This document shows positions 11 to 31,541 of a stretch of DNA of 64,000 nt, one piece after another. Every line of letters starts with the position of its first letter. Within the stretch, counting starts at the first letter, position 1. Made by a program: the position numbers and the translations under genes. Location: the NCBI RefSeq assembly GCF_008634025.1, contig NZ_PDCM01000002.1:1550001-1614000 (forward strand). Reading direction: 5' to 3'. Under the pieces are notes generated by a model. The model was not told the DNA's origin. It searched no databases and saw only the letters and a program-made list of their open reading frames with translations. The DNA comes from Streptomyces albofaciens JCM 4342 (GTDB lineage Bacteria; Actinomycetota; Actinomycetes; Streptomycetales; Streptomycetaceae).

Positions 11-886
11 ATGGCGGCATCACTGGAGGAACTCGAGCAGCGCCTGTCCCACCTGCGCACCGAGCTGCGCGGTGCCGTGCGTGCACGGGACAAGGCCGAA
101 GCCGCGCGCATCCGTCGTGCACTGCGCGAGGCCGAGGCCGCATGGGAGCACGCCCTGGAGTCCGAGGCGGAGCCGGACGGCGAGGCCCTTCCGGTCGAGC
201 CCCCGGCCCCGCGAGCGTCGGCGACCGCAAGCGCACCACGCCGCAAGGAGCGCCCGACGCACGGCTCCATCCCGATCCGCGAACAAGTCCACCAGGCACT
301 CACCCTGCTGGGCGCCCCTGCCTCCCCGAAACTCATCTCCTCCACGTACGAGGCGTTTTTCACCGAGTCACTGGTCGCCACCAAACTCGCGTCCCTCCGT
401 CGCGACGAGGAGCGATCCTTCACGGCTCAGGGTTATGCCCGCCCGTACTACATCTGCGCAGCACTGACCCACGACCGCCTGGTCCCCGCACGCGGGCTCC
501 TGGCCCTGTCCACTTGGCCCGTGGAGCGACGGATCATAGGCCCGCTCAGCCCGCGCACCGACTTCCTCACCCACGCGACGGGAACCGCCGAGCAGATCCA
601 GCGACTCACCGCCGCGGGACATCCAGTCCCCGACGCGGCCTGGCGGGTGCTGCGCCGTTTCGCCCTCACGATCCCGGGCGCCTACGACGCCGCGGCCCCG
701 GAACCCGACCCTGCCCGCGTGATCGCGGCCGCGCACGCCGAAGCGGCCGTCCACCAGCAGGAGGACGACCAGCAGCGGCAAGCTGCCGCACAGCGCGCCC
801 GTACCCAACTCGGTGATGTACAGCAGCTGTTCGGTGCGGCACCGATGCGTGACGCACTGCGCGACGCGAGTGAATCCCTGCCCTGA
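11..886 (+). CDS. Winged-helix protein, first gene of helicase/nuclease cassette
   Basis: I do not recognise a named family for this 291-aa protein. Residues 3-50 are charged and heptad-like (many E, R and A), so probably a coiled coil. A Pro/Ala-rich linker follows to about residue 80. Residues 88-150 look like a winged helix-turn-helix, with a helix starting at REQVHQAL and a wing around SFTAQGY. The C-terminus is another charged helix. The gene runs in the same direction as the nuclease, middle protein and helicase that follow, with an 80-nt gap to the next start, so an adaptor or DNA-binding role in the same cassette is inferred. The start lies 10 nt inside the window, so a longer N-terminus upstream cannot be excluded. 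Confidence 0.6.
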   Translation: MAASLEELEQRLSHLRTELRGAVRARDKAEAARIRRALREAEAAWEHALESEAEPDGEALPVEPPAPRASATASAPRRKERPTHGSIPIREQVHQALTLLGAPASPKLISSTYEAFFTESLVATKLASLRRDEERSFTAQGYARPYYICAALTHDRLVPARGLLALSTWPVERRIIGPLSPRTDFLTHATGTAEQIQRLTAAGHPVPDAAWRVLRRFALTIPGAYDAAAPEPDPARVIAAAHAEAAVHQQEDDQQRQAAAQRARTQLGDVQQLFGAAPMRDALRDASESLP

Positions 887-966
887 CCCCCCTTCCCGAC
901 GGCGATGACGTCAGGCGCCTCGCACGCCGGTGATCTCCCGAAGACACGTTCCCCGAAGTAGAGACG

Positions 967-2085
967 ATGCCCTCGCAGCAGTCCGAACATCCCGACGACA
1001 GACTCGCACGGCTGCGCGGACCGCAGCCCCCTCAGCCGTACACCGCCCGCAAGATCACCGCCCTGACCGCCAACCCGGCCTGCGCCCGCCGGGCCGTGCT
1101 CGACGCCGCCGGGGTGGACAAGGCGCTGCTCGCCCAGCAGGTCGGATACGAGCCGCGCTTCGGCCAGTCACCCTTCGCCCTCGCCCGCGAACAGGCCTTT
1201 CACAGCCTCGTCAAGTGGGGCAGCTACGCCGAGCTCATCCGGCTGCTGCGCGAGCAGCTCTCCGTCCCCGTGGCGGAGGCCCATGTCACCGACCTCAACG
1301 AGGTAGGGGGCAACACGGCCCTGCACCTGCGCGAGCGGGAGACCCGCCGCCTTATCGCGCATGTGGCCTCCGGCCAGGACATACGGCTCATCCTCGACCG
1401 CCCCGTACTCACCCTCCAAGTCGCCGGTCGCACGGCGTACCTGGAGCCGGATGCGCTCACCCATCGCATCGAGGGTAAGTTCCACGTCGTCCTGATCCGC
1501 TCGTTCGCGGCGATCGACGGCCAGGCCAATCCGACCGCGGTCGCCGAGGCGGCCAAGCAGGCCGCGGTGTACGTCCTCGCGCTGCACCGCGCCTTCGAGA
1601 CGGCCAGTCTGCCCACCGAGCAGATATCCCACGAGTTCCTGCTCGTCTGTCCCAAAGACTTCTCCAACCGCCCCTACGGGCGCCTGATCGACCTTCGGCA
1701 GGAACTCGACGCCCTCCAATTCCAGCTCTCGCGGCTGCGGCGCGCAGAGGACCTCGCGGCCCAACTGCCCGGGACCGCCACCCTGGACACGGCCCGAAGC
1801 GCGGGCGAACTCTCCTCCTCCATAGAGGCCTTGGACGCGTCGTACACGCCTTCCTGTCTGTCCTTCTGCGAAATGGCGCGCTACTGCCGCGACGAGGCCG
1901 ACGGATGCGCCTCGCCGGCCCGCCTGGGCAGCGGCGTGCGCAACGACCTGCCGGGCATCGACTCCACCCGCACCGCGCTCGACTACCTGGACGGCGTCGC
2001 CGCCCCCGGAGAGGCCGAGGCGGAAGCCGTCGACCTGCTGCGCGCCGCCGCCCGGCTGCGCCGACTCCGCCGGAGGGCCGCATGA
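967..2085 (+). CDS. Cas4/RecB-like Fe-S PD-(D/E)XK nuclease family protein
   Basis: This 372-aa protein has the layout of Cas4/AddB-type Fe-S RecB nucleases. One N-terminal Cys (C39, in TANPACARR) pairs with a C-terminal cluster C297-x3-C301-x5-C307, with a further C314, which would hold a 4Fe-4S cluster. The nuclease core shows a Pro-Asp (D162 in YLEPDAL) and the family QxxxY motif (Q198 to Y202). The usual ExK is not clear: the strand at 174-179 reads VVLIRS, so the catalytic Glu/Lys may be lost or shifted. Known family members cut or resect DNA ends, often with a helicase. Its stop overlaps the next start (ATGA at 2082-2085), which indicates translational coupling. Cleavage activity is uncertain. 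Confidence 0.7.
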   Translation: MPSQQSEHPDDRLARLRGPQPPQPYTARKITALTANPACARRAVLDAAGVDKALLAQQVGYEPRFGQSPFALAREQAFHSLVKWGSYAELIRLLREQLSVPVAEAHVTDLNEVGGNTALHLRERETRRLIAHVASGQDIRLILDRPVLTLQVAGRTAYLEPDALTHRIEGKFHVVLIRSFAAIDGQANPTAVAEAAKQAAVYVLALHRAFETASLPTEQISHEFLLVCPKDFSNRPYGRLIDLRQELDALQFQLSRLRRAEDLAAQLPGTATLDTARSAGELSSSIEALDASYTPSCLSFCEMARYCRDEADGCASPARLGSGVRNDLPGIDSTRTALDYLDGVAAPGEAEAEAVDLLRAAARLRRLRRRAA

Positions 2086-3593
2086 GCGTCTTGTCCACCG
2101 TCGCGACGATCACGGCGTCCCACACCGGCCGCGCCGAACCTCTGACGACCGTCCGCCACCAGCACCTGGACGAGCAACCGTTCGTCCTGGTGCCGCTCAC
2201 CCTCGCCGGCGAGGCGTGCGCGCCCTTGGCCGCGCTCGCGGGTACGGACCCCGAACGCCCGATGCTCCTCACTGTCCGCCAGCCTCGCAACCGCGCCGAA
2301 CGCTTCCGCTTCGCCGAGCGCCTCGCCACCCTTCTCCTCGCGTACATCGACGGGTGCCGAACGGAGACGGAGCCCTACACCGTCGGCCGCGGCAAGGAAA
2401 AGGAGGAACGCCTGCGCTTCCAGCGGGCCCCGCAGCTCCTCGTCCCGAACGGCGAGGGCATCGCCTACGTGCGCCTGCTCGGCCGGCTGACCAGACTGCG
2501 CGCAACCGAGGGTCCATACGCGGTCGACCCGTCCGTGCCGGCTCTCGGTAAGTGGCTGACCTGGTTCGCGGACCTGGCCGAGTTCCCGAACTCCGGTGCG
2601 CTCCTCGCGATGACCCGGCTGCTCGCCGCCAACTGGGCCACAGGCCAGAGTTCTTCCGAGGACTCCCACCTCGCGTCCCTGTTCGCCTGGATCGATCCTC
2701 CGGAGGACAGTGACGGCGCGCGGGCGGCACGGGAAGCGGAGGACCCCGCCGTGTGGCCGCCGGCCGGTCCGTCCACGGACCCGGTCTTCGACCGCACCCT
2801 GCACGCGTTGATGACGCGCTACGACGATGCGTCCGACGACCGCGGACGCGAGGCGGTCGGCCGCCAGATCGACCATGAGCTGAGTGGCCAGATGCTGCCC
2901 ACCTGGCGGCTGATGTGGCGCGGAGTGGAGCTGCTGCGCGAGCTGCCGGAGGGCGCCCACGTTCCCGGCCGCTGGGACCTCGACCGGCGCTGGTTCTCCG
3001 AGTACGTCGAGTACCTGGACGCCGACGGCCGCCCGCAGGCCCGCCGCGACCAGGCCGTCCGAGCCGCCCGCCGCCTGGCCCGGCTGGAGGACGCGGTCAC
3101 CCGCTTCGAGGCGGAGCGCGCGTTCGACGACCCCCTGGTGATGGCGGAGTACGAGCTGACCGGCGAGGCGTTCACGGGTACGGTCACGGCCCGGGACGAG
3201 GACCGCTTCATCCCGGGCGACCGTCCTGGTTCCCAGGTGTGGCGTCCGACGATCGTCCTCCGCACCGACACCCGCGTCGGCCTCGCGGTAGGCACGGAGG
3301 TGAAGTCGCCCGCCCGCCCCGGCCAGGAAGCTCGCATTCTCGAAGTCAGGCAGGAGGACGGTGCCGGTCACACCGTGGTGCTCCAGCTCAAGGGCGGCTT
3401 CGCGAGGAAGCGCACACCACCGGCACCGCCCGGAACCCTCGCGGAGACCGGCGAAGAGCTGACGTACACCACGCTCAACCCCACGGCCATGCCGTCCGTC
3501 CTGCCCGACGAGGAAAACACCCCCTGGACCCACGGTGGTCCGCCCCAGCCGTACGAGCCCACCGACGAGGACGCAGAGGAGACCTGGGAGTGA
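2082..3593 (+). CDS. Unknown protein between Fe-S nuclease and SF1 helicase; C-terminal beta-barrel-like segment
   Basis: This 503-aa protein starts at the ATG in the ATGA overlap with the nuclease gene; an upstream in-frame start at 1905 would lie deep inside that gene. I recognise no named family. The first 350 residues are mostly helical, with long Arg/Glu-rich helices near 290-370 that could form a stalk. Residues about 365-450 are beta-rich with alternating hydrophobic strands (for example RPTIVLRTDTRVGLAVG), like the OB/SH3-like 1B barrel and stalk that Upf1/Dna2-type helicases carry as insertions. The last 60 residues are acidic and Pro-rich. Its end overlaps the helicase start by GTGA. 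My inference is that it supplies the accessory DNA-binding part of a helicase-nuclease complex. Confidence 0.55.
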   Translation: MSVLSTVATITASHTGRAEPLTTVRHQHLDEQPFVLVPLTLAGEACAPLAALAGTDPERPMLLTVRQPRNRAERFRFAERLATLLLAYIDGCRTETEPYTVGRGKEKEERLRFQRAPQLLVPNGEGIAYVRLLGRLTRLRATEGPYAVDPSVPALGKWLTWFADLAEFPNSGALLAMTRLLAANWATGQSSSEDSHLASLFAWIDPPEDSDGARAAREAEDPAVWPPAGPSTDPVFDRTLHALMTRYDDASDDRGREAVGRQIDHELSGQMLPTWRLMWRGVELLRELPEGAHVPGRWDLDRRWFSEYVEYLDADGRPQARRDQAVRAARRLARLEDAVTRFEAERAFDDPLVMAEYELTGEAFTGTVTARDEDRFIPGDRPGSQVWRPTIVLRTDTRVGLAVGTEVKSPARPGQEARILEVRQEDGAGHTVVLQLKGGFARKRTPPAPPGTLAETGEELTYTTLNPTAMPSVLPDEENTPWTHGGPPQPYEPTDEDAEETWE

Positions 3594-4954
3594 CCGCCCT
3601 CCTTCCTGACACCGGGGAGCCGGAAGCCCTCACCCCCGGCGAACGCGCGGACCGGGCGGTCGCAGGGATTCTCGCCAGCCTCGACACCGCGCCCGGCCGG
3701 GGTGTCGTGGTGGACTCACCACCCGGAGCCGGAAAGTCCACGCTGGTGGTGAAAGCCACCGGACACCTGACGTCCGCAGGCCACCAGCTCATGATCGTCG
3801 CGCAGACCAACGAACAGGTCGACGACCTGGTGGACCGCATCGCGCGGGAGCATCCCGGCCTGGCTCTCGGCCGCCTCCACGCCGGCGGCCACCTCCTCCC
3901 GCCCCGTGTCACCCGGCATGCCAACGTCACCGGGAGCAGCCAGGCGGCGGACCTGCGCGACCTGCCCGTCGTGGTGTCCACCGCGAAGAAATGGTCGTTC
4001 GTCACGCCGGAAAAGTGCGCCCCTTGGCGGTGGGCCATCGTCGACGAGGCGTACCAGATGCGCTCGGACGGGCTCCTGGCGACGGCCCCGCTGTTCGCCC
4101 AGGACGACTCGCAGGTTCTCTTCGTCGGCGACCCCGGTCAGCTCGACCCCTTCGCCACCGTGGAATCCGACCGTTGGCACGGCCTGACCTGGGACCCCCT
4201 GCGCAACGCGGTCGACGTCACCCTCGCCCACAACCCCGACCTCGTACGCCACCAGCTCCCGGTCTCCTGGCGCCTACCGGAGACGGCGGCGCCCCTGGTC
4301 GAGCAGGCCTTCTACCCCTTTTACCAGTTCGTCCCCGGCACGACGGCACCGGAGCGAGTACTGTCGTACGGCAGCTTGCCCCACGGCTCGGGCCCACTGG
4401 ACGACGTCCTCGCCCGGGCCGCCGACTCCGGCTGGGGCCACCTGGAACTCACCGCCCGCCACACCCTCGACGAGGACCCGGAGGTGGCGGATGCCCTCGC
4501 GGCGACGGCGGCCCGGCTGCTGGAGCGCGGTGCGCTGGTCAACGGGGAGCCCCTGACCGCGGACCGCATCGCGATCGGCACGGCACGCACCGTGCAGGCG
4601 GACGCGGTCCGCTCCCGCCTCGCCGCCTGCGGCCTGACCGGCATCACGGTGGACACCGCCAACCGCCTCCAAGGCCGCGAGTTCGACGTCACCCTCGTCT
4701 GGCACCCCCTCTCCGGCCGCCAGGACGCCTCCGCCTTCCACCTGGAGACGGGCCGCCTGTGCGTCCTGCTGTCCCGACACCGCTTCGCCTGCATCGTGGT
4801 AGCCCGCGCCGGCATCCGCGACCTGCTGGACCGGCACCCGCGGAGCAATCCTGTGTACCTGGATGTGCCGCCTAAGTTCCCTGACGGGTGGCGAGCGCAT
4901 CAGGTGGTCATGGGGTGGCTGGAGCGGGGGGAGCACCGGGTGCGAGCGGCGTGA
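3590..4954 (+). CDS. SF1 (Upf1/Dna2-like) AAA helicase
   Basis: A 454-aa superfamily-1 helicase. Motif I is PPGAGKST at 44-51, motif II is the VDEA at about 151-154, motif III is GDPGQLDPF from 180, motif V is the QGREFD near 360, and motif VI is the LLSRHRF near 393. The sequence pattern is that of the AAA_11/AAA_12 (Upf1, Dna2, Ighmbp2) group. It is compact, without the large 1B/stalk insertion usual in that group. The GTG start at 3590 overlaps the preceding stop (GTGA) with a GGAG-type ribosome site just upstream, so it is the last gene of a coupled operon. Proposed role: ATP-driven translocation on DNA for the linked Fe-S nuclease. The substrate is unknown. Confidence 0.8.
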   Translation: MTALLPDTGEPEALTPGERADRAVAGILASLDTAPGRGVVVDSPPGAGKSTLVVKATGHLTSAGHQLMIVAQTNEQVDDLVDRIAREHPGLALGRLHAGGHLLPPRVTRHANVTGSSQAADLRDLPVVVSTAKKWSFVTPEKCAPWRWAIVDEAYQMRSDGLLATAPLFAQDDSQVLFVGDPGQLDPFATVESDRWHGLTWDPLRNAVDVTLAHNPDLVRHQLPVSWRLPETAAPLVEQAFYPFYQFVPGTTAPERVLSYGSLPHGSGPLDDVLARAADSGWGHLELTARHTLDEDPEVADALAATAARLLERGALVNGEPLTADRIAIGTARTVQADAVRSRLAACGLTGITVDTANRLQGREFDVTLVWHPLSGRQDASAFHLETGRLCVLLSRHRFACIVVARAGIRDLLDRHPRSNPVYLDVPPKFPDGWRAHQVVMGWLERGEHRVRAA

Positions 4955-5233: not shown

Positions 5234-8200
5234 ATGGTCCCCAGCGACACGGGCCGCACGATCGACCGGTTGCGCAAGCATCTGACCGGCGCCACGCGCC
5301 TGGACTCGCTGACTGAGTCGTTCTCCGTATTCGTCTACGAGGCACTCCAGGAGGAGTTGGCCGATGTCGACCTGCGCCTGCTCCTGCACGGCGACAGTCT
5401 CGATGACTTGGCCCTGAACGGCCTTCGGGAGGAGAATCTCCATCGCGCCCGGCTGGATCAGCACCGCGTCGCCCGCGCGTTCCTGAAGTGGGCCGAAGAA
5501 CATCTTCAGGCGAGGGCGCTCAAGCGGCGCACGCGCGGTACCTGGACGAGCGTCGACGGGCCGTTCCCTTATGTCGTCGACGGCGCGGGCCTTGAGGCCG
5601 AGAGCCTCGGCCTGGTGGCGTCCCAGGACCTGTACTTCCCTCTGGAAACGACGGAAGCGGACAAGGTGGCGCAGGCCGTGGTCCGCTTCGAGCGGATGTG
5701 GCACGACGACGGCACCAGCAGTACCATCCAGCAGGAGTTCCTCAACGCCGCCCGAACCCTCTTCATGGACAGGGCACCCGAGTCCATCTACCTGCGCATC
5801 CTGACGTCCCTGTTCAAGGACTTCGTCGAGGAGGCCGGCGAGGAGACCGCTGAGCGAGGCAGAACGGGCTTCTACGACTCCGTCGTGTGGAAGAAGCTCT
5901 ACAAGTTCCAGCGTGACGGCGTGCTCGGCGCGATCGAGAAGCTTGAACGCCATAACGGCTGCATCATCGCCGACAGTGTGGGCCTGGGGAAGACCTTCGA
6001 GGCCCTCGCCGTCATCAAGTACTACGAGCTGCGCAATGACCGCGTTCTCGTCCTGGCGCCCAAGCGGCTGCGGGAGAATTGGACCATCTACCGCGGCAAC
6101 GACAGGCGGAATCCGCTGGCTGCGGACCGCTTCCATTATGACGTCCTCAACCACACCGATCTAAGCCGGACCGGCGGGCTGTCGGGGGACATCGACCTGG
6201 CGAACGTCAACTGGGGCAACTACGACCTCGTCGTGATCGACGAGTCTCACAACTTCCGTAACAACCCTCAGGTCAAGGGACGAACGACCCGATACGAGCG
6301 CCTCATGGACGAGGTCTTCAGGTCTGGAGTGAGGACCAAAGTCCTCATGCTCAGTGCAACGCCCGTGAATACACGCTTGGCTGACCTGAAGAACCAGGTT
6401 CTGTTCGCCACCGAGGGAGACGACCAGGCACTGGCTTCGGACGGGATCAGAAGTATCGAGACCACACTGAACAAGGCACAAAGGCACTTCAACGAGTGGC
6501 AGCGACTCCCTGCGGCCACTCGGAGTACGAAGTCCCTGGTCGGCACGCTCGGCATGGATTACATTCGACTGCTGGACCTGGTCACGATCGCCCGCTCCCG
6601 GAAGCACATCGAGAAGTATTACGGCACCAAGGACGTCGGAAGGTTCCCCGCCCGCCTGGCTCCCGTTAACCTCACCCCGCCCATCGACACGGCCGACATG
6701 ATGATCCCGCTGGAGGAGATCAACCGGTCGATCCTGCGTCTGAATCTGGCCGCCTACAAGCCCACCTCCTACGTCAGCGCCAAGCACGAGAGCAAGTACG
6801 CGGCCCTGTACGACCAGAGGGTGCGCACTGGCGGCCGACGCGTGTGGCGGCAGACCGACCGTGAGAACAACGTGGTCCACCTGCTGCGAGTGGGTCTGCT
6901 AAAGCGCTTGGAGTCCTCGGTCAACTCCCTGGGCAAGACGCTCGGCAAGATCCTGGCCACCGTGGAGGGCGCGATCGCCAGCATCGACGCCTACGAGGCG
7001 ACCGGGGCCGAAGGAACGTCCATTGACAGTTTCGCCGACCTGGAGAAGATCGACCTGGACGACCCGCAGTTCGAGGACACCGTCGGCGGCAGCGTCAAGG
7101 TCTTCCTCGCTGACATCGACCGGGTGCGGTGGCGGCAGGAACTCGAGCACGACCGGGACACCGTGGCCAGCCTGCTCGTCGAGGTGACGGCGGTCGACGC
7201 CGACCGCGACGCCAAACTGGCCGAACTCAAACGGTTCCTGCGCGACAAGGTCCAGCACCCCACCAACGACGGCAACCGCAAGGTACTGGTGTTCACCGCT
7301 TTCAGCGACACGGCCGAGTACCTCTACGAGCATGTGGCCCGCTGGGCTCGTGACGAACTGGGTGTGCACGTGGCCCTGGTCACGGGGCAGAGCACCCGGA
7401 GCACCCTCCCGATGAAGCGCGTCCATATGGTCGACGTCCTCACCGCGTTCTCACCGCGCTCCAAGGACGGCGATCCGGACGACCCGCAGATCGACATCGT
7501 GATCGCCACCGACACCATTTCCGAGGGCCAGAACCTCCAGGACTGCGACACGGTGATCAACTACGACATCCACTGGAACCCGGTGCGCATCGTCCAGCGT
7601 TTCGGTCGCGTCGACCGCCTCGGTACCACCAACACGAGTGTTCAACTGGTCAACTTCTGGCCCAACATAGACCTGGACGCCTACATCAACCTCGAGGCGC
7701 GCGTGTCCAGCCGTATGACCCTGCTGGATGTCTCCGCGACCGGTGAGGAGAACGTCCTGGACGTCACGTCCGGCGACATGAACGACCTCGACTACCGGCG
7801 CAAGCAACTGCAGCAGATGCAGCAGGCCGCTCCCACCATGGAGGACCTCGCCGGCGGTCTGAGCATCACCGACCTGACGCTCTCCGACTTCCGCATGGAC
7901 GCCGCGGCTCGTGCGCGTGACGAGCTTCAGGAGATCGCCGGGTGGCCCCTGGCCCTGTTTGGCGTCTCCCGCTTCGACAAGGCCCTCGCCGACGACGGGC
8001 TCGCTCCTGGTGCGGTCTTCCTCCTGCGTGTGCGGGACGACGCGTTCGCTTTCTCCGAGGGGTACCCGCTGGCGCCGTACGTGCTGGCCTACGTGACCGA
8101 CGACGGCAGCCTCGCCCACGAGATCGAGGAACCCAAGCTGGCCCTCGACGTCCTGCGCCACCACTGCCTGGGCATTACCGAACCCGACGCCGCCATTCTG

Positions 8201-8410
8201 GCGGAGTTCGACCGGATGACCAGGTCGGGCAGGTCCATGAAGCACTACCGCGACCTCTTGGACGTGGCGGTCCGCGCCGCCTCAGGAAAGGCCGAAGAAA
8301 GCATGGTGGCCTCTCTCTTCTCGGCAGGCCCCTCACTACTGGGAACGGAGGCCGCCGCGCCCGGCCTGGAAGCCGTAGATTTGATCGCATGGCTGGCGGT
8401 GCTGCCGTGA
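5234..8410 (+). CDS. SNF2/DEAD-like helicase of extended type III R-M locus
   Basis: A 1058-aa superfamily-2 helicase. The RecA-like core begins with an SVGLGKT Walker A near residue 245. It continues with a DESHN motif II near 335, LSATPVN motif III near 372, and a C-terminal helicase lobe with ATDTISEGQNLQ and QRFGRVDRLG near 757-796. This is the SNF2-like group common in prokaryotic defence loci. The N-terminal 220 residues are helical and not recognisable to me. A GGAGG site lies about 12 nt before ATG 5234. The end overlaps the DUF4391 gene by GTGA. Helicase, DUF4391, Mod and Res together form a recurrent neighbourhood, so it is inferred to act with the type III enzymes. Its own reaction is unknown. 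Confidence 0.85.
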   Translation: MVPSDTGRTIDRLRKHLTGATRLDSLTESFSVFVYEALQEELADVDLRLLLHGDSLDDLALNGLREENLHRARLDQHRVARAFLKWAEEHLQARALKRRTRGTWTSVDGPFPYVVDGAGLEAESLGLVASQDLYFPLETTEADKVAQAVVRFERMWHDDGTSSTIQQEFLNAARTLFMDRAPESIYLRILTSLFKDFVEEAGEETAERGRTGFYDSVVWKKLYKFQRDGVLGAIEKLERHNGCIIADSVGLGKTFEALAVIKYYELRNDRVLVLAPKRLRENWTIYRGNDRRNPLAADRFHYDVLNHTDLSRTGGLSGDIDLANVNWGNYDLVVIDESHNFRNNPQVKGRTTRYERLMDEVFRSGVRTKVLMLSATPVNTRLADLKNQVLFATEGDDQALASDGIRSIETTLNKAQRHFNEWQRLPAATRSTKSLVGTLGMDYIRLLDLVTIARSRKHIEKYYGTKDVGRFPARLAPVNLTPPIDTADMMIPLEEINRSILRLNLAAYKPTSYVSAKHESKYAALYDQRVRTGGRRVWRQTDRENNVVHLLRVGLLKRLESSVNSLGKTLGKILATVEGAIASIDAYEATGAEGTSIDSFADLEKIDLDDPQFEDTVGGSVKVFLADIDRVRWRQELEHDRDTVASLLVEVTAVDADRDAKLAELKRFLRDKVQHPTNDGNRKVLVFTAFSDTAEYLYEHVARWARDELGVHVALVTGQSTRSTLPMKRVHMVDVLTAFSPRSKDGDPDDPQIDIVIATDTISEGQNLQDCDTVINYDIHWNPVRIVQRFGRVDRLGTTNTSVQLVNFWPNIDLDAYINLEARVSSRMTLLDVSATGEENVLDVTSGDMNDLDYRRKQLQQMQQAAPTMEDLAGGLSITDLTLSDFRMDAAARARDELQEIAGWPLALFGVSRFDKALADDGLAPGAVFLLRVRDDAFAFSEGYPLAPYVLAYVTDDGSLAHEIEEPKLALDVLRHHCLGITEPDAAILAEFDRMTRSGRSMKHYRDLLDVAVRAASGKAEESMVASLFSAGPSLLGTEAAAPGLEAVDLIAWLAVLP

Positions 8411-9177
8411 GTGACATTCCCCACGAGTACGCCGGTGCCGACCTGCTGGCTCTGCCCGAGAAGGCCCGGCAGCAGCAGCGTGTCGCGAAGAAGATGCTCG
8501 CCGCCCAGTTCGAGGATCAGACCCCCGCCGACGCCCGGCTACTGACCAAGGCGGTGGCCTCGGCGAACCTGGTCGGCATTTTACGCCCGGAGACCATACA
8601 GGTGCCCCGGTACCAGGACGGCGAGCGTACTGTCGTCGACGTCCCTGTCCTCGAGGCTTTCCTGGCCGACAGGACCTCGGCATCCGACAGGACTCGCGTG
8701 GCCGAACTCGTCCATCGCAGCATGGCCAAGCCGGTGGTGCTGTTCGCGCACATGCCCGACGGCATCACGGTCCTCTCGCTGGCGCTCAGCCATGTGAGCC
8801 GCACAGACCCCACCAGGTCGACCTCCGTAATAGACGCGCACGTCATGGTGCCGACCAAAGGTATCGAACCGGGCGCCCTCCACCTCGACCGGGTGGACCG
8901 CACGGACATGTGGGCGCTGTACCGCGACCTCGTGCGGACCGCAGCCGCTGACGGCCGCCCTGCCGGCACTGCCCTGCGGGCGGCGGACGCGGTCGCGCTA
9001 CGCCGACGGTTGACCGACCTGGAGAGCGAACTGATCACGGTCGTGCGGGACGCGAAACGCGCGAGGAATCAGCAGCAGCGCATCGATCTGAATATGGCGG
9101 CTCGGACGCTGCGTACACAGATCGGTCATGTCAGAGGCACCCTATACAGTGCCGACGGCGACCATGACACCGCCTGA
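8407..9177 (+). CDS. DUF4391 domain-containing protein
   Basis: A 256-aa protein that I place in DUF4391, a family found beside SNF2 helicases and type III methylases in defence islands. The pattern fits: an N-terminal helical segment (residues 8-40), a central beta-rich domain with KPVVLFAHMPDG and a following strand, and a C-terminal helical region (190-240) likely to be coiled coil. No catalytic motif is visible. The GTG start at 8407 overlaps the helicase stop (GTGA); an in-frame ATG at 8389 would add six residues and is the alternative. A 45-nt gap separates it from mod. Function is unknown; the context suggests an accessory subunit of the helicase or of the Mod/Res pair. Confidence 0.75.
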   Translation: MSDIPHEYAGADLLALPEKARQQQRVAKKMLAAQFEDQTPADARLLTKAVASANLVGILRPETIQVPRYQDGERTVVDVPVLEAFLADRTSASDRTRVAELVHRSMAKPVVLFAHMPDGITVLSLALSHVSRTDPTRSTSVIDAHVMVPTKGIEPGALHLDRVDRTDMWALYRDLVRTAAADGRPAGTALRAADAVALRRRLTDLESELITVVRDAKRARNQQQRIDLNMAARTLRTQIGHVRGTLYSADGDHDTA

Positions 9178-9222
9178 ACAGCTTGCAAATCATCACCTAA
9201 GCACACAAGGAAGACATCACCC

Positions 9223-11220
9223 GTGACCCTGAACTTCGAACCGGTCGGCAACCTGACCGGCCCCGGCGAGGCCAAGTCGAACCTCGACGTACTGGCGCGT
9301 CTCTTCCCCGACGCCGTCGTCGACGGCACCGTCGATATCGAGGCCTTCCGGGACCTCCTGGGTGAGAACGCCGCCCCTACGACCGCCGAGGCGTTCGGTC
9401 TGCGCTGGCCCGGCATGTCCGAGGCCCGCCGCCTGTCCACCCTCCCTGCCACAGGGACCCTCCTGCCGAAGCACGAGGAGTCCGTGGACTGGGACAACAC
9501 CCGCAACCTCATGATCGAGGGCGACAACCTCGAGGTGCTGCGGTTGCTGCGGCGCGGATACACCAACAAGGTCGACGTGATCTACATCGACCCGCCCTAC
9601 AACACGGGTAGCAACGAATTCGTCTACGACGACAAGCGCACTAGCTCGCAGGCCGAGCACGAAACGGTGGCGGGTCAGCGGGATGAAGATGGGGTGCTCC
9701 AGACCGGCGGTGGATCCGATCGGGCGCAAGACCGCAGGGCCGGTGCGTCCAGGCATTCGGCGTGGTTGTCGATGATGTATCCGCGGTTGCTTGTGGCACA
9801 TCACCTACTCAAAGAGACAGGGGTCATCATCGTCTCTATCGATGATGCTGAGCATGCACGTCTCAAGCTTCTGATGGATCGGGTGTTCGGGGCGGAAAAT
9901 TTCATTGCCAGCGTGACTTGGCAGGGCGGACGCAAGAACGACGCTCACTTTCTGTCACCGTCCACCGACTACATGCTGATTTATGTAAGGGACATTGGTT
10001 CTCTGGCAAACGTGCGCTGGCGCGAGCAGAAACCGGGGGTTGATTCGATTCTCGCGGCTGGACGCAAGGCATGGGCAGAGTCCGGTGAAGACGAAGCCGC
10101 GGCAACGAAGCTGATGAAAAACTGGTGGGCCAGCCTGACTCCGGACGATCCCCGACGAGCATCCGAGCACTACAATCAGATCGATGGGCAAAACGGCCGA
10201 CCTGGGGTGGTCTATTTCGGTGACAACCTGCGTAGCCCAAACCCCCGCCCCAACCTCTGTTACGACCTTCTCCACCCGGCAACAGGCAAGCCTGTCAACA
10301 TGCACCCAAACGGATGGGCATGTGAGGAGCCGCGAATGACGGAGCTCGTCTCAGAGGGACGCATCAAGTTTGGGCCTGATGAGACAACACGTCCCACTTT
10401 CAAGCGATATCTGGACGAGACCAGTACGCAGACGGTGCTGCCAGTATTTTATATGGACCGACGCGCAGCATCCAAGCGGCTGGATTCGCTCCTAGGCAAG
10501 GGTGTCTTCCCTTTCCCCAAAGATGAGAATGTCATCGCTCGATGGATCAATCTCGTTACTCAGTCGAACCCTGATTCCCTTGTCCTTGACTTCTTTGCGG
10601 GGTCAGGCACGACTGGTCACGCGGTCATGAATCTCAACGCCGCCGACGGTGGCAATCGTCGCTACATCCTGGTCCAGCTCGACGAGCGCGTCGACAAGGA
10701 CGGTTACGAGACGATCGCCGACATCGCTCGTGAGCGCCTCCGCCGTGCGGGCAAGCAGATCGCGTCCAAGCAGAGCTCCGACGCCGCCCCCATCGACATC
10801 GGTTTCCGGTCGTACCGCCTGGCTTCCAGCAACGTGAAGGCCTGGGATGGTACCCCTGACCAGCTGAACCTGCTCGAAGCCGTGGACAACCTCGTGGCTG
10901 GGCGTACCGCAGATGATCTGTTGGTCGAGATGATGCTGCGCATGGGCGTGGAGCTGACCACACCGCTGGAGACACGCGAGATCGCTGGCAGCCCGCTGTA
11001 CAACCTGGCGGGAACACTGTTCGCGTACTTCGGCACCGACATCACGATCGACCGGGCGAACGAAGTCGCCAAGGCTCTGGCGGCCTGGCGCGACGAGGAG
11101 CCGGGCGACGCCGACACCACAGTCGTTATCCGCGACACCGGCTTCGTCGACTCCGCCACCAAGCTCAACTTCGCCGCCGCGCTCAAGCAGGCCGGCTTCA
11201 CAACGCTGCGGAGCATCTGA
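9223..11220 (+). CDS. mod: Type III restriction-modification methyltransferase (Mod)
   Basis: A 665-aa site-specific amino-methyltransferase. The catalytic motif IV is DPPY at 123-126 (YIDPPYNTG), and the S-adenosylmethionine motif I is FAGSG at 458-462. The order IV before I is that of beta-class Mod subunits, which methylate the N6 of adenine and also provide target recognition for the nuclease. The segment between the motifs (about nt 9690-10620) is the expected target-recognition region. It is visibly less GC-rich, with codons such as ATT, TTT and CAT that are rare in its neighbours. The start is GTG 9223 with an AAGGAAG site upstream. The stop abuts the Res start with no gap, so Mod and Res are coupled. 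Confidence 0.92.
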   Translation: MTLNFEPVGNLTGPGEAKSNLDVLARLFPDAVVDGTVDIEAFRDLLGENAAPTTAEAFGLRWPGMSEARRLSTLPATGTLLPKHEESVDWDNTRNLMIEGDNLEVLRLLRRGYTNKVDVIYIDPPYNTGSNEFVYDDKRTSSQAEHETVAGQRDEDGVLQTGGGSDRAQDRRAGASRHSAWLSMMYPRLLVAHHLLKETGVIIVSIDDAEHARLKLLMDRVFGAENFIASVTWQGGRKNDAHFLSPSTDYMLIYVRDIGSLANVRWREQKPGVDSILAAGRKAWAESGEDEAAATKLMKNWWASLTPDDPRRASEHYNQIDGQNGRPGVVYFGDNLRSPNPRPNLCYDLLHPATGKPVNMHPNGWACEEPRMTELVSEGRIKFGPDETTRPTFKRYLDETSTQTVLPVFYMDRRAASKRLDSLLGKGVFPFPKDENVIARWINLVTQSNPDSLVLDFFAGSGTTGHAVMNLNAADGGNRRYILVQLDERVDKDGYETIADIARERLRRAGKQIASKQSSDAAPIDIGFRSYRLASSNVKAWDGTPDQLNLLEAVDNLVAGRTADDLLVEMMLRMGVELTTPLETREIAGSPLYNLAGTLFAYFGTDITIDRANEVAKALAAWRDEEPGDADTTVVIRDTGFVDSATKLNFAAALKQAGFTTLRSI

Positions 11221-14200
11221 ATGAAGTTCTCCTTCGATGCGGACCTCGACTACCAGCGTCAGGCCATCGATGCGGTCACGGGTCTGTTCAAAGGTCAGGA
11301 GGCCATGACCTCTCAGTTCACCGTGCACGCACACCCGTCCGCACACGCCGGCTTCGAGGGGCTGTCCGACCTGGGATACGGCAACATGCTGCATCTGGAC
11401 CGGGAGACGATCCTCGCCAACCTGCGCAAGGTACAGAACGACACGGGCCTCGCTCCGGAACCGTCGCTCGACTCGATGAACTTCACCATCGAGATGGAGA
11501 CCGGCACCGGCAAGACGTACGTCTACCTGCGAACCATCTACGAGCTCAATCAACTCTACGGATTTACCAAGTTCATGGTGGTGGTGCCGTCGGTGGCCAT
11601 CAAGGAGGGCGTCGAGACCTCTATCCGGATGCTGCGTGAGCACTTCGCTACCCTGTATGGCAACCCGCCGATGAACTTTTTCCAGTTCGACGGCGGTAAC
11701 CCGTCCCGGGTCCGGTCCTTCGCCACCTCGCCGAGCATCGAGGTCATGATCGTCACCGTCGGGGCGATCAACAAGAAGACCAACAAGATCTACCAGCCGG
11801 CCGAGGATCTCGACTTCGAGGTGCCCGCCGATCTGATCCGAGCCACAAGGCCGATCATCATCGTCGACGAACCCCAGAGCGTGTACGGGGACGCCGGCAA
11901 CGGAAGGAAGAAGGGCGCGGGACGCAGCGCGCTGGAGGACTTCAACGCCCTGGCCACTCTGCGCTATTCGGCCACCCACCCGAAGGACGACAAAGCCAAC
12001 CTCGTCTACCGTCTCGACGCCATCGCCGCTTACGAGAACGAGCTGGTCAAGCAGATCGAGGTCGACTCGCTGATCACGTCTTCCAGTGGGACGACCCCGT
12101 ACGTCAAGTTCCTCGAGGCAAAGCGCGGCAAGGCCGGAGCGATCACGGCCCGCGTCGAGGCGGACGTCGAGGAGGGGAACGAGCTCAAACGGAAAGCCAT
12201 CACGGTTGACACCGGGTCGCGCAGCAACCTCGCGGATGTGACTGGGCGTGACCTGTACAAGGACCTCACGGTGGTCGCCATCAACGCGGCCGAGGGGCAG
12301 CAGAGCATTTCCTTCGATACCGTCGCGCATCCGCTCGGTGTAGGCGACAGCATCGGCGCCGAGGTCAGCGTCGATGAGCGGGCCCGCCAGATGATCGCTC
12401 AGACCATCCGGCAGCATCTGCGCAAGGAGCAGGAGTTCGCAATCCACGGACGTGACATAAAGGTACTCAGCCTGATCTTCGTCGACTCCGTGGCAAAGTA
12501 CCGTGAGTACGGCCCCAACGGGGAGGCTCTTCCCGGCGAGTATGCGCGGATCTTCGAGGAGGAGTACACGCGCATCGCCTCGGAGCCGGAGTTCAGCACT
12601 CTGCTGGGCGACTCTCCCGCCGACCAAGTCGCAAAGGAAGCTCACCAGGGGTACTTCTCCGTGGACCGCCGCAAGGGCGGTGGTGAAGTACTGGTGGACA
12701 CCAAGGAGACCACCGACAAGGGGCGCCAGCAGGCCGGTCTGGCTTACGAGCAGATCATGCGGGACAAGGTCGGCCTGACCACGCCCGGCACCCCCATCCG
12801 GTTCATCTTCAGCCACTCCGCGCTGCAGGAGGGATGGGACAACCCCAACGTCTTCCAGATCTGCGTCCTGAGGAACATGGGCACCGAGCGGTGGAGGCGC
12901 CAGTCCATCGGCCGGGGCCTGCGCCTCTGCGTGGACGGGTCTGGCAACCGCGTGCACGGATTCGACACCAACCGCCTCACCGTGATCGCGAACGAGTCCT
13001 ACGAGGAGTTCGCCGAGCGCCTCCAGCGCGAAATGGCCGACGACCTGGGAATCCGGTTCGGCGTCGTCACCGTGGACGGCTTCGCACGGCTGACCTTCAA
13101 AGCGGAGGACGGGAGCGTCGTCCCCGTGGGCGCGGCCGCCGCGGAACAGCTGTACCAGGCCCTGTTCTTCGAAGGGTACGTCGACGTGAAGGGGAAGGTA
13201 CAGGACAGCCTGCGCAAGGCCGTGCAGACAGGCGACGCGAAACTCACGGAGATCGTCGGCGACGTCATGGATTCGGAGGCCGCGACCAAAACGGTACTCG
13301 GGCACATCAAACGCCTGGCCAAGCCGATCGAAGTCAAGAAGGCCGGCGAACGCATGGCGGTGCCGGTGGTCCAGGAACGGCTGGAGAGCGCCGAGTTTCA
13401 GGAACTCTGGAACCGCATCCGGCACCGCACGGAGTACCGCGTCGACGTCGACGAAACCGACCTTCGCGCCGCGATGGTCAACGCGCTGCGCACCATGCTC
13501 CCCGTGCCCAAGCGCCGCGGCGAATGGCTCACGCACCGCGTGCGGCGCATAGACCAGAGCGGTCTGACGGCCGAAGCGGCGGCCGCGCGCCGCACGGACG
13601 TCACCTACGCGGACAGTGAAGACCTGCCCGACATCCTGTCCGTCCTCGCGGATCGCACGCAGTTGACCCGTGCCACGCTCGCCCATGTCCTCACTGAGTC
13701 GGGCACCCTCGCACAGTTCCGGAACAATCCGCAGGCATACATCGACCAGGTGGGCCGCCTACTCAACATCACCAAGGAGCAGTTCCTTGTCGAAGGGGTG
13801 CGCTACGAGTTGGTGGACGCCTCCCGCCCAGAAGCGGACCGCCGCTACCCGATAAGCCTGTTCCACGAGGCTGACCTCGCCGGCTACACCGGCCCCGGAG
13901 GAAACATCATCACGGACGCGGACGGCAACGCCGTCTCGTTCGAGGACAAGTCCGTGTACCGCTACCTGATCATCGACTCGGCTCCGGAGAAGGAATTCGC
14001 ACTCGCACTCCTACAGCGTCCCGAGGTCAAGACTTTCGTCAAGCTTCCGCCATCGTTCCAAATCCCGACCCCTCTGGGGAACTACAATCCCGACTGGGCC
14101 CTGACCGTGGAACGGACCGATGGCAGCCGCTACATCGTTTTCGAGACCAAGGACGTCAACGAACTGGCCCTACTGCGCCCCGCAGAGCAAAAAAAGATCG

Positions 14201-14316
14201 CTTCCGCCCGTAAGCACTTCGCCGCGGTGACGCGAGACGCGGGGATAGACGATCTCGAGTACGAGGTCGTCAACGGCATCGAGGCAGCGACCGCGGTGAT
14301 GGAACGGGACGCCTGA
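11221..14316 (+). CDS. res: Type III restriction endonuclease (Res), DEAD/DEAH helicase
   Basis: A 1031-aa Res subunit. The helicase core has Walker A ETGTGKT at 93-99, motif II DEPQ at 216-219, a SHSALQEGWDNPNVFQ motif near 525-540, and the IGRGLR motif near 560. The C-terminus carries a PD-(D/E)XK nuclease: P957-D958 followed by E975-T-K977 (FETKD). Type III Res uses ATP to move along DNA and cuts when it meets another enzyme at an unmethylated inverted site. Its ATG follows the mod stop directly. All catalytic elements are intact, so the Mod/Res pair should be active. Confidence 0.92.
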   Translation: MKFSFDADLDYQRQAIDAVTGLFKGQEAMTSQFTVHAHPSAHAGFEGLSDLGYGNMLHLDRETILANLRKVQNDTGLAPEPSLDSMNFTIEMETGTGKTYVYLRTIYELNQLYGFTKFMVVVPSVAIKEGVETSIRMLREHFATLYGNPPMNFFQFDGGNPSRVRSFATSPSIEVMIVTVGAINKKTNKIYQPAEDLDFEVPADLIRATRPIIIVDEPQSVYGDAGNGRKKGAGRSALEDFNALATLRYSATHPKDDKANLVYRLDAIAAYENELVKQIEVDSLITSSSGTTPYVKFLEAKRGKAGAITARVEADVEEGNELKRKAITVDTGSRSNLADVTGRDLYKDLTVVAINAAEGQQSISFDTVAHPLGVGDSIGAEVSVDERARQMIAQTIRQHLRKEQEFAIHGRDIKVLSLIFVDSVAKYREYGPNGEALPGEYARIFEEEYTRIASEPEFSTLLGDSPADQVAKEAHQGYFSVDRRKGGGEVLVDTKETTDKGRQQAGLAYEQIMRDKVGLTTPGTPIRFIFSHSALQEGWDNPNVFQICVLRNMGTERWRRQSIGRGLRLCVDGSGNRVHGFDTNRLTVIANESYEEFAERLQREMADDLGIRFGVVTVDGFARLTFKAEDGSVVPVGAAAAEQLYQALFFEGYVDVKGKVQDSLRKAVQTGDAKLTEIVGDVMDSEAATKTVLGHIKRLAKPIEVKKAGERMAVPVVQERLESAEFQELWNRIRHRTEYRVDVDETDLRAAMVNALRTMLPVPKRRGEWLTHRVRRIDQSGLTAEAAAARRTDVTYADSEDLPDILSVLADRTQLTRATLAHVLTESGTLAQFRNNPQAYIDQVGRLLNITKEQFLVEGVRYELVDASRPEADRRYPISLFHEADLAGYTGPGGNIITDADGNAVSFEDKSVYRYLIIDSAPEKEFALALLQRPEVKTFVKLPPSFQIPTPLGNYNPDWALTVERTDGSRYIVFETKDVNELALLRPAEQKKIASARKHFAAVTRDAGIDDLEYEVVNGIEAATAVMERDA

Positions 14317-17152: not shown

Positions 17153-19048
17153 GCACCGCCTTCGCGAGGTCCGCGGTGCGGCGGATGATCTCCTCCGCGT
17201 CGTCGACGGTTACGGCTTCGTGGAACCCTTGTTGCGCCACCGGATGTGGTCAGTGGTCGGCTGGCCGTAGGCCCGGGTGAGGTCGGTCATGGTCTCGCCC
17301 ACCCGGTCGGTCTCCCCGTAGAGGGCGAGGGAGGCCAGTTCGGTGAGCTTGTGGGCCTTGGCGACGTGCTATTCGATCTCGGCGTGCGGCAGGCCCCTGC
17401 CGAGGAGCCGGCGCCGGGCCGGTTCGAGGAGGGCGGCCTCCAGGGCGGTGCGGCACAGGCCGGGCAGGACGCGGGCTACGACGTCGCCGGGCAGATCGCG
17501 GGCCCTGGCGAGCGCCTTCGCGTCGTTCAGGGGCCAGCTTGACGGGATCGTCACCGGAGCGGAGACCCGTACGGCGGAGCGCTCACGGCAGTCGACCGTG
17601 AGGACGGTGGCGGGCAGCCGCAGGTACTTCAGGGCCTGCGGCAGGCGGGTGTCGTGGGTGAAGACGACGACCTGGCGGTGCTCAGCGAGGAGCGCGAGGA
17701 CGCGGGCGAGACCGTCCACCTTGGCGGGGTCCATCGACTGCACTGGGTCGTCGATGACGAGGAACCGGAAGGGGTTCTCCGGGAGGAAGGTGCGCGGGAG
17801 GCAGAGGGACAGGGCGAGGGAGTGCAGTTCCCCCTGGCTCATCACGCCGAGCGCGGGGGCGTCGATGTCGTCGACGGTCACGTCGGGGGCGACCTTGCGC
17901 TGGGTTCCGGAGCCGCCCAGGCGGACCGGGCCGAGGGCGACGTTGCTCTGCTGGCGGCAGGTGTCGAGGGCGGGATGGGCGCGGTGGTGAGCGAGCGCAC
18001 GGGCGAGGAGTTCGGCGCGGCGCAGCGCGTCCTCGGCGGAGGTGCCCCGCAGGTCCTCGCGGAGGCGATGGCTTCGCGCAGCCGGGTCACGGCCGTGGCG
18101 ACCGCCTCGGTGTCGGGTCCGGTCAGGGTGGAGCGGCGGCGCAGGTCGAACAGGAGTGACTCGTCCGCCGGGCCGGTCCCGGCGGCGAGTTCGGCCGCCC
18201 GCGCGAGGTCTGGGCGCCGCCCGCTCAATGCGGTGTGGGGCGGCCCGGGCGCGGGGGTCGTCGGTGCCGTCCAGGAGGATGAGCAGGGCGGGCAGTTCCG
18301 CCTTGGCTTCCTTGGCGGGTGCCTCGTACTCGCGGGCCAGCTCCCGCAACCCCTTGTTGGCGGCGGCGAGTTGCTCCAGCCCGAGGATGGAGGCGACGGC
18401 GTCGTACATCTCGCTGGGCCTGCCTCCGATCACCTGGCCGAGCTCGGAGAACGACAGGATGGGGCGGTAGGTCGCCAGGCCCTCCTGCCAGCCGAGGCCC
18501 GGGAGAGGGACGGGCTCGTGGCCCGTGGTCGAGTTCGGCAGTGGAGTCGGCGACGTCGTCCCCGTGCCAGGTGCGCAGCACGGTGGCCGGCTCCGGTTCG
18601 CCGTCGATACGCAACTCCACGGCGACCTGAGGTTCCTGGCCGTGGTGAAGGTTGCGCCAGCTCTTGCGCAGATGTCGCTGCGGCCGCGCCAACGGGCGTT
18701 GTCGCCGGTCAGCGCAATCTCGACAGCCTCCGCGAAGCTCGACTTGCCAGAGCCGTTGCGGCCGGTGACCAGGGTGAGCCCCGGGCCGGGGGTGAGGGGG
18801 AGGCGTGCGGTGCGTCCGATACCGCGGAAGCCGCTGACCGTGACGGACTGCAGGTAGGCGCCCGGCATCCGGCCGCGCGCCCCGTCGTCGTCCTGGAACG
18901 CGGTGAGCAGGAGGGATCGGGTGTCCTAGTCGAGGTCCGAGCCGGCGAGTCGATCGGCGATGAGATGGGCGAGGGTGCCGGCCGCCGGGTCCTGGGCGGG
19001 CGGCCCTGCGGGAGACGGGTCCGGGGCGGGATCGGCGGGTTCTGGCAT
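17153..19048 (-). pseudogene. Decayed SMC/RecF-like AAA ATPase
   Basis: The start is best placed at ATG 19048 (MPEPADPAPDPSPAG). A TAG stops that frame after AGSDLD. The conserved core then follows: VTVSGFRGIG with Walker A TGRNGSGKSSF, an ELGQVIGGRPSEMY segment, a signature-like GVMSQGELHSLALSLCLP, and Walker B FLVIDDPVQSMDP with a HDTRLP switch. This is the pattern of RecF/SMC-like defence ATPases. Several shifts break it (near 18680, 18500, 18230 and 18060). A second TAG precedes HVAKAHKLTELASLALYGET near 17370. The coiled-coil middle appears shortened. It is clearly not functional as read here. Confidence 0.7.
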
Positions 19049-27990: not shown

Positions 27991-28078
27991 TGGTGTCCGA
28001 GGGGGGACTTGAACCCCCACGCCCGATAAAGGGCACTAGCACCTCAAGCTAGCGCGTCTGCCATTCCGCCACCCGGAC
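27991..28078 (-). tRNA. tRNA-Leu (GAG anticodon)
   Basis: A full cloverleaf on the minus strand. The acceptor is GTCCGGG with CTCGGAC, followed by discriminator A and an encoded CCA (27991-27993). The anticodon stem is CTAGC/GCTAG with loop TTGAGGT, giving anticodon GAG. There is a long variable arm (TGCCC...GGGC) and a T arm with GTTCAAG. The class II shape and anticodon identify leucine. Its 3' end faces the accessory island, the usual side for integration of mobile elements. Confidence 0.95.
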
Positions 28079-28447
28079 TAGGTGTCGTCTTCGCGGGGCG
28101 TTCCCCGCGGCGACATGGACAACAATACCAAGGTTTCGGAGTGGGTTTCACCTGCGTATCCGGGCAGGGCATAAGGGCGGCTTATGGGCCGACGGGCAGG
28201 GGGACGGTTGCCGCCCTGGTCAGGCGGACGGGTGACGGGCGGGACCCTCGGCACACCGCGAGGGTGAGTGGTCCGGCCAGCCCTTGGCTTGAACGGTGCG
28301 GTGGCCCCTGGACAGGCTCGGCCCGATGCGGGATAACGCTCCATACAGTATTCGTCGACTGTATGCGATCTGCATCCGCTGTGATCAGCGTGCCGTGCAG
28401 CGCCGGTCTCCCCTGGCGGATCGCCCTACGAAGGGATGCGATGCCCC
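28079..28447. other. Intergenic region before the oxalate operon
   Basis: About 370 bp between tRNA-Leu and oxc. It holds a perfect 7-bp inverted repeat (separate entry) and otherwise GC-rich sequence without a supported gene. Confidence 0.5.
28342..28365. promoter_or_regulatory. Inverted repeat, candidate operator of the oxalate operon
   Basis: CATACAG (28342-28348) and CTGTATG (28359-28365) form a perfect dyad with a 10-bp spacer, 83 bp before the oxc start. The spacing fits a dimeric repressor. The regulator is unknown. Confidence 0.4.
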
Positions 28448-30160: not shown

Positions 30161-30170
30161 GGAGCCGCTG

Positions 30171-31427: not shown

Positions 31428-31541
31428 TGGACCGGTTGACGGATGGGCGATGGATGGATGGGCGGCTGCCGGATGAGCAGTTGGCGGATGGGCGGGGGCA
31501 CCTGATGGGGGGGACGGTTACGGGAAGCGGACCCGGCGGCC

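Follow-up and report, generated by a model that had tools for sequence, protein, structure and literature searches.

In Dna2 an iron-sulfur (Fe-S) nuclease, a barrel, a stalk and a superfamily 1B (SF1B) motor follow one another in that order, and members of the Cas4/AddB nuclease family share a cysteine pattern of one N-terminal and three C-terminal residues. COG2251 is described in a 2014 survey as a PD-(D/E)XK-like domain joined to PF13482, often with tandem AAA domains, PF13482 itself being placed beside the PolB exonucleases (PMC3985635). Here we analyze a 64,000-nucleotide stretch of the Streptomyces albofaciens JCM 4342 genome (NZ_PDCM01000002.1, positions 1,550,001 to 1,614,000; the window), in which the open reading frames (ORFs) at 11-4954 confirm a prediction, made earlier from the sequence alone, of four same-strand genes, called A to D below. 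The ATGA/GTGA junctions of that prediction were also found, as overlaps of 4 nucleotides (nt) between B and C (ATGA, 2082-2085) and between C and D (GTGA, 3590-3593); because a gap of 80 nt separates A from B, these two overlaps join three genes. Read one after another, those three, B-C-D, give the succession of domains found in the fused COG2251/TM0106 enzymes. Our preferred reading, to which we give a probability of about 0.55, is that they encode a DNA-end-processing machine split over three chains, and that the window copy is nuclease-degenerate and most likely works as a helicase or translocase for the neighboring pPIWI-RE (Ppr) system.

Gene D encodes the motor. Its Pfam domains (AAA_11, AAA_30 and AAA_12) are those of an SF1B protein with Upf1-like motifs, and the main motifs are intact and invariant among 39 aligned members, which bears out the proposal of a compact SF1 Upf1/Dna2-like helicase. 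Against PADLOC, D gave weak local helicase matches only (e.g. PprDinG, E 4.2e-4), and when the four proteins were searched by sequence against the PDB nothing useful came back, B finding two designed or engineered proteins and A weak helical matches. Gene C encodes the bridging subunit, for which AlphaFold2 (AF2) with 93 sequences predicts a fold with a local confidence (pLDDT) of 91.8 and a predicted template modeling score (pTM) of 0.90. The model consists of an RNase H-like part followed by a stalk and a 1B-type barrel; the beta-barrel that had been expected in the middle protein is there, as predicted by AF2 and by fold search. The top fold match of the stalk and barrel is Sen1/SETX, and the barrel matches are unspecific. 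Strand 1 (positions 33-43) carries no acid in any of the 93 relatives, and the RNase H/PolB-exonuclease-like fold looks inactive. Pfam, NCBIfam and PADLOC hold no family for the window protein, Pfam gave stray weak matches only across the 93 relatives, and a search of phage records returned no match.

The order in the operon is therefore nuclease (B), RNase H-like domain (C, 31-303), stalk and barrel (C, 319-465) and SF1B motor (D). In five fused TM0106/COG2251 proteins from other actinobacteria, an N-terminal nuclease stretch is followed by RNase_H_2, by ∼220 residues and by AAA_11/AAA_12 according to Pfam, PDDEXK_1 itself matching one of the five. In a profile comparison against the fused chain, divided into four segments, B, C and D each scored best on the cognate segment (0.029, 0.035 and 1.1e-24, respectively), only D significantly, and gene A, which has no counterpart there, reached 0.036 on the motor segment. 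Because A scores as well as they do, B and C yield no sequence proof of homology with the fused enzyme, and the segment-wise profiles were discarded as such a proof; with the similarity of B and C insignificant, the match in order rests on fold and motif. The two forms are also nearly complementary in their occurrence. Among 197 genomes of the class, 29 carry the split C (among them every one of the 16 Streptomyces drawn), 59 carry a fused TM0106 protein over the cut-off, and one (G090) carries both (Fisher's one-sided P 2e-4, uncorrected for kinship). With the fused model at E<=0.001 the count is 68 genomes and the overlap with the split form four, three of these being weak Streptomyces matches. 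Two families (f17 and f18) contain genera with the fused form and genera with the split form, no genome of theirs having both. TIGR03491 had no match in A-D or elsewhere in the source genome, and none of the 31 nearest genomes was over the cut-off.

B-C-D differs from the fused enzyme in being spread over three genes instead of one chain, in that the RNase H-like part of C lacks both the strand-1 acids and a Pfam match, and in the absence of E-x-K from the window B. The original prediction had called the set a split Dna2-like cassette. The parts and their order do match Dna2 (an Fe-S nuclease-type subunit, barrel, stalk and SF1B motor, with the 1B barrel and stalk predicted to precede motif I across C and D), but B-C-D is bacterial, consists of separate chains and contains an additional RNase H-like platform, and in the window the nuclease site is lost. 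The gene order agrees more closely with the fused COG2251/TM0106 enzyme than with Dna2.

A Cas4/AddB-type Fe-S nuclease had been proposed for gene B. The protein has the 1 + 3 cysteines of that family (C39, C297, C301 and C307, all four invariant) and a predicted PD-(D/E)XK domain, and most B relatives read EPD...E-x-K; the window protein, however, reads EPD...L-I-R. It matches no family in Pfam, NCBIfam or PADLOC, and the PDDEXK_1 profile, which matches 10 of 46 B relatives at E<=0.05 (best E 0.0014), does not match it. With the catalytic Glu and Lys lost and the Fe-S cysteines kept, the window B has, to judge from its sequence, probably lost its activity, the degenerate motif making it unlikely to cut by the usual mechanism. 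Broken beside Ppr and intact beside SbcCD, the motif offers a matched set that amounts to a natural experiment. There are 12 distinct Ppr-linked cassettes (the window, L043-L050, L189, L239 and L240; judged by length, L236 is the L045 contig and L247 the L043 contig), and every one of them has Arg in B in place of the motif lysine. The E-x-K glutamate is Leu in nine of them, and the remaining three (L050, L239 and L240) have Gln for the Asp of EPD (EPQ, IPQ or APQ). EPD and E-I-K are intact in all 10 SbcCD-linked copies of B and in the core copy found elsewhere in the source genome (L006). Among 117 B rows, some of them repeated, E-x-K is otherwise lost only in L051, L052, L054 and L055, which belong to the same accessory clade and have no Ppr in view; L090 reads EPA in place of EPD. 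Compared with its eight relatives in L043-L050, the window B is still constrained, with a ratio of nonsynonymous to synonymous substitution rates (dN/dS) of 0.13-0.20, and the values for A, B, C and D together (0.11-0.23) indicate purifying selection on all four.

A scan of named genomes with a C profile gave at least 561 loci, the best 80 of which were kept, some of them cut by contig ends. B precedes C in all 80, B-C-D are found in this order in 58 and A-B-C-D in 51, and because these orders recur, the four-gene arrangement is not due to chance. D is missing from the locus in 21, all of them from Micromonosporaceae and some cut by contig ends. In the two genomes tested in which D is not adjacent (G153 and G254, of family f37 and with Micromonospora-like B and C), it was found on the same strand as C at a distance of ∼36 and ∼49 kb. 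At the protein level, a search gave at least 3738 relatives of C. In Streptomyces, D matches in 58 of the 61 genomes drawn (58 of the 59 good ones), the source genome included and mostly as one strong copy, and B-C-D stand together in 15 of 15 core loci fetched. Contig C1 of the source genome carries a further B-C-D operon (L006), on the minus strand, with overlapping ends and next to what looks by eye like the gene of a PAP2-like membrane protein; because this genome has a single match to A, the core operon is one without A. The C tree largely follows families, with the Streptomyces core C forming one clade (Shimodaira-Hasegawa-like approximate likelihood ratio test 100) and the window C in a separate accessory Streptomyces clade (100), and clustering of the neighbors reveals that the chromosomal context is conserved in Actinomadura and in Micromonospora. 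Distribution is patchy for the A-bearing form (5/61 Streptomyces genomes) and not for the core form. The window copy belongs to the accessory form and lies in a defense island. B-C-D is not primarily a defense system, and the earlier idea of an uncharacterized defense system does not hold, in the main, for a stand-alone one. Pfam, NCBIfam and PADLOC contain no name for the combination, as had been supposed, and no description of the operon was found in the literature searched, a coverage that mostly excludes subscription journals and preprints. In two loci (L061 and L068) an extra gene, of GmrSD type by Pfam in L068, stands between C and D.

Gene A is the inconstant member, and the co-conservation on which the earlier proposal depended holds for B-C and B-C-D but not for A, which was found in 52 of the 80 loci. 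An essential fourth subunit is ruled out by the core operon of the source genome and by the 28 loci without A, some of them cut by contig ends. The protein is predicted (AF2; pLDDT 89, pTM 0.68) to have an N-terminal UVR-like helical hairpin followed by an HHH-beta-beta domain that is winged-helix-like. In the fold search the hairpin resembled those of the ClpC/UvrB type, and outside it there was no confident match, including none to a winged helix; the original assignment as a winged-helix protein agrees with the predicted domain. Pfam, NCBIfam and PADLOC gave zero matches to A.

The window starts inside the defense island. A complete Ppr system lies on the opposite strand, beginning 125 nt left of the window edge, which cuts the locus. 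Its genes (L005 5684-14875, minus strand) encode a PDDEXK_1 nuclease, pPIWI_RE_Y with a restriction endonuclease domain, the pPIWI_RE_Z helicase and a pPIWI_RE_X-MID-RNase H protein, and PADLOC names the same clusters in sister loci (L045, L047, L049 and L050) PprPDDEXK, PprRE, PprDinG and PprPIWI. One PIWI-RE nuclease has reportedly been studied experimentally (PMC10991935). The Ppr mechanism assumed here is a published prediction, in which pPIWI-RE serves R-loop directed restriction and acts with a DinG helicase (PMC3702460). PADLOC does not place A-D among the Ppr proteins, A-C matching no Ppr model and D having only its weak PprDinG match. Ppr is adjacent and divergent in the window and in 11 further distinct loci. 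The pPIWI_RE_Z profile was found in 34 of 199 Streptomyces genomes, and of the 30 Streptomyces Ppr loci that were read, six adjoin A-D and 24 do not. All six fall among the seven with a PprDinG that shares at least 77% identity with that of the window, and none of the other 23, two of them very distant, has an adjoining A-D. One of these two very distant loci lies ∼15 kb from an SbcCD-linked cassette on one contig (G159, contig C18, 124-146 kb; L188 and L243). The link still holds at L239, where identity has fallen to 63-69% for PprPDDEXK, C and B, and PprPDDEXK keeps its KPD..ELK motif in 9 of 9 loci checked.

Other cassette copies adjoin SbcCD (Mre11-Rad50) and Wadjet, both absent from the window locus. 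SbcD-SbcC adjoin the cassette in 10 loci. They stand downstream of D in four (L057, L093, L103 and L122; by Pfam for SbcD of L103 and SbcC of L122, by tblastn for the rest) and divergent from A in six (L183-L188), the position held by Ppr in the window, although L187 retains only part of SbcD and the L184 genes are fragmentary. L183, L184, L186 and L187 form a group, A-D of L186 and L187 being 83-94% identical to those of L183, and these four loci also carry Wadjet. In L183 and L184 it lies directly 3' of D (annotated DUF3375, DUF4194, ATP-binding and JetD-domain), and the genes are of type II in L186 (JetA2, JetB2 and JetC2) and L187 (JetA2 tested). L183 is on a linear plasmid (NZ_CP108489.1), with SbcCD, A-D and Wadjet in one block ∼6-22 kb from the plasmid end. 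In G048, contig C1 (10.68 Mb) has an accessory cassette at mirrored spots near its two ends, at 20-25 kb and at 10.652-10.657 Mb, L185 being one end; the chromosome is probably linear, with the cassettes inside its terminal inverted repeats. Rad50/LmuB-like ATPase genes on the opposite strand upstream of the cassette were identified by Pfam and PADLOC in L052 and by blast cluster in L061, L068 and L090, the last with one intervening gene. An ORF of this kind in the Ppr-linked L189 is longer (807 amino acids), and the window has what appears by eye to be a shortened relative at 17369-18868 (minus strand).

In the mechanism that we infer, complex formation, substrate and polarity included, C would contribute the stalk and 1B barrel that in SF1B motors such as D normally stand just before motif I. 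C would dock on D as its 1B domain, contribute an inactive RNase H-like platform and hold B at the strand exit, with the unwound DNA passing through the Fe-S subunit. The ordinary core form would be a chromosomal genome-maintenance enzyme that resects or degrades DNA ends, and the accessory A-B-C-D copies would have been recruited to defense islands beside modules that sense or make such ends (SbcCD, Wadjet, Rad50/LmuB-like ATPases, restriction-modification (R-M) and Ppr). In the window, a nuclease-dead motor with an Fe-S scaffold would open DNA for Ppr, whose own PprPDDEXK motif is intact. The accessory copies could also be read as a stand-alone anti-phage or anti-plasmid system with Ppr, R-M, SbcCD and Wadjet as mere island neighbors: at E<=1e-20, 89 neighbor proteins of 11 accessory loci match 144 PADLOC families (a count of families, not proteins) compared with two for 105 neighbor proteins of eight core loci, both sets being hand-chosen with some ORFs dropped; A is patchy; and copies occur on two Streptomyces plasmids. 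We nevertheless hold this to be unlikely, given that B-C-D is also a near-universal core operon with conserved surroundings in Actinomadura and Micromonospora and that the degenerate motif makes the usual cutting improbable.

Just as doubtful, in our estimate, is the converse, that the operon serves DNA repair (end resection) everywhere, that its position next to Ppr is an accident frozen in one island and that the window carries a redundant paralogue in slow decay. The core copy in L006, the degenerate window B and the Ppr systems without a cassette fit such a history, but purifying selection acts on all four window genes, the Ppr link is kept down to the identity seen in L239, and six of the seven closest Ppr loci keep the cassette. 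Sen1 and SETX are R-loop helicases, and with D of the Upf1/Sen1 type and the stalk-barrel match in C, B-C-D might instead act on RNA or RNA-DNA hybrids, the window motor unwinding R-loops for pPIWI-RE, which agrees with the R-loop proposal made for those systems in the source cited above. Ppr, however, already owns a DinG-type helicase, B-type Fe-S nucleases and SbcCD partners indicate DNA ends, and the barrel matches are unspecific, and we regard this as the least probable of the alternatives. Returning to the split end-processing machine with a window copy working for Ppr, it can be extended, tentatively and with rather long odds for the whole, to a wider picture. Streptomyces and related actinobacteria would use a three-subunit Dna2-like end-resection machine with SbcCD (compare Mre11-Rad50 and Dna2) in place of the fused COG2251-type enzyme; copies would have become interchangeable motor modules for defense; and in the window the nuclease would have died, leaving the motor and Fe-S scaffold to hand DNA to a pPIWI-guided nuclease complex. 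Conserved in almost every Streptomyces examined but still without a name, the helicase-nuclease operon could fill a gap in the picture of DNA-end processing in these bacteria, whose chromosomes are linear. That it is paired again and again with SbcCD, Wadjet and Ppr suggests a borrowing of genome-maintenance motors by defense modules.

Table. Features of the cassette, its downstream neighbor and the core operon of the source genome (window positions, except for the L006 rows, which are numbered within that locus)
Feature	Position	Strand	Remarks
Gene A	11-886	+	291 aa; accessory partner, inconstant
Gene B	967-2085	+	372 aa; predicted Cas4/AddB-type Fe-S PD-(D/E)XK subunit, active site degenerate
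Cys39 of B	1081-1083	+	first predicted Fe-S ligand; invariant in alignment A4 (46 sequences)
E160-P161-D162 (EPD) of B	1444-1452	+	kept in the window
L176-I177-R178 of B	1492-1500	+	E-[I/V]-K in most relatives; catalytic Glu and Lys lost
Cys297, Cys301, Cys307 of B	1855-1887	+	remaining predicted Fe-S ligands; invariant in A4 (46 sequences)
Gene C	2082-3593	+	503 aa; bridging subunit
C residues 31-303	2172-2990	+	predicted RNase H-like fold resembling the archaeal PolB exonuclease domain
C residues 319-465	3036-3476	+	predicted stalk helix with a beta-barrel that resembles domain 1B of Sen1/SETX
Gene D	3590-4954	+	454 aa; compact SF1B (Upf1/Dna2-type) motor
Walker A of D (DSPPGAGKST)	3713-3742	+	invariant in alignment A6
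SNF2 - DUF4391 - type III Mod - type III Res module	5234-14316	+	downstream neighbor (Pfam and PADLOC)
L006 B'	8544-10121	-	core operon
L006 C'	6898-8553	-	core operon
L006 D'	5462-6901	-	core operon

The type III R-M locus reported beside the cassette is present as the Mod and Res genes downstream of D, but other modules replace it in sister loci, and for that reason the SNF2-DUF4391-Mod-Res module lies outside the cassette and its R-M genes are ruled out as a part of it. Farther along the island, an ORF at 19268-20941 (minus strand) resembles, by eye only, a GmrSD/DUF262 protein and would be a further defense-type gene. A tRNA-Leu (gag) at 27991-28078 (minus strand) and genes at 28436-35020 that resemble those of oxalate catabolism (oxalyl-CoA decarboxylase and formyl-CoA transferase, by eye) possibly mark the island's right edge.

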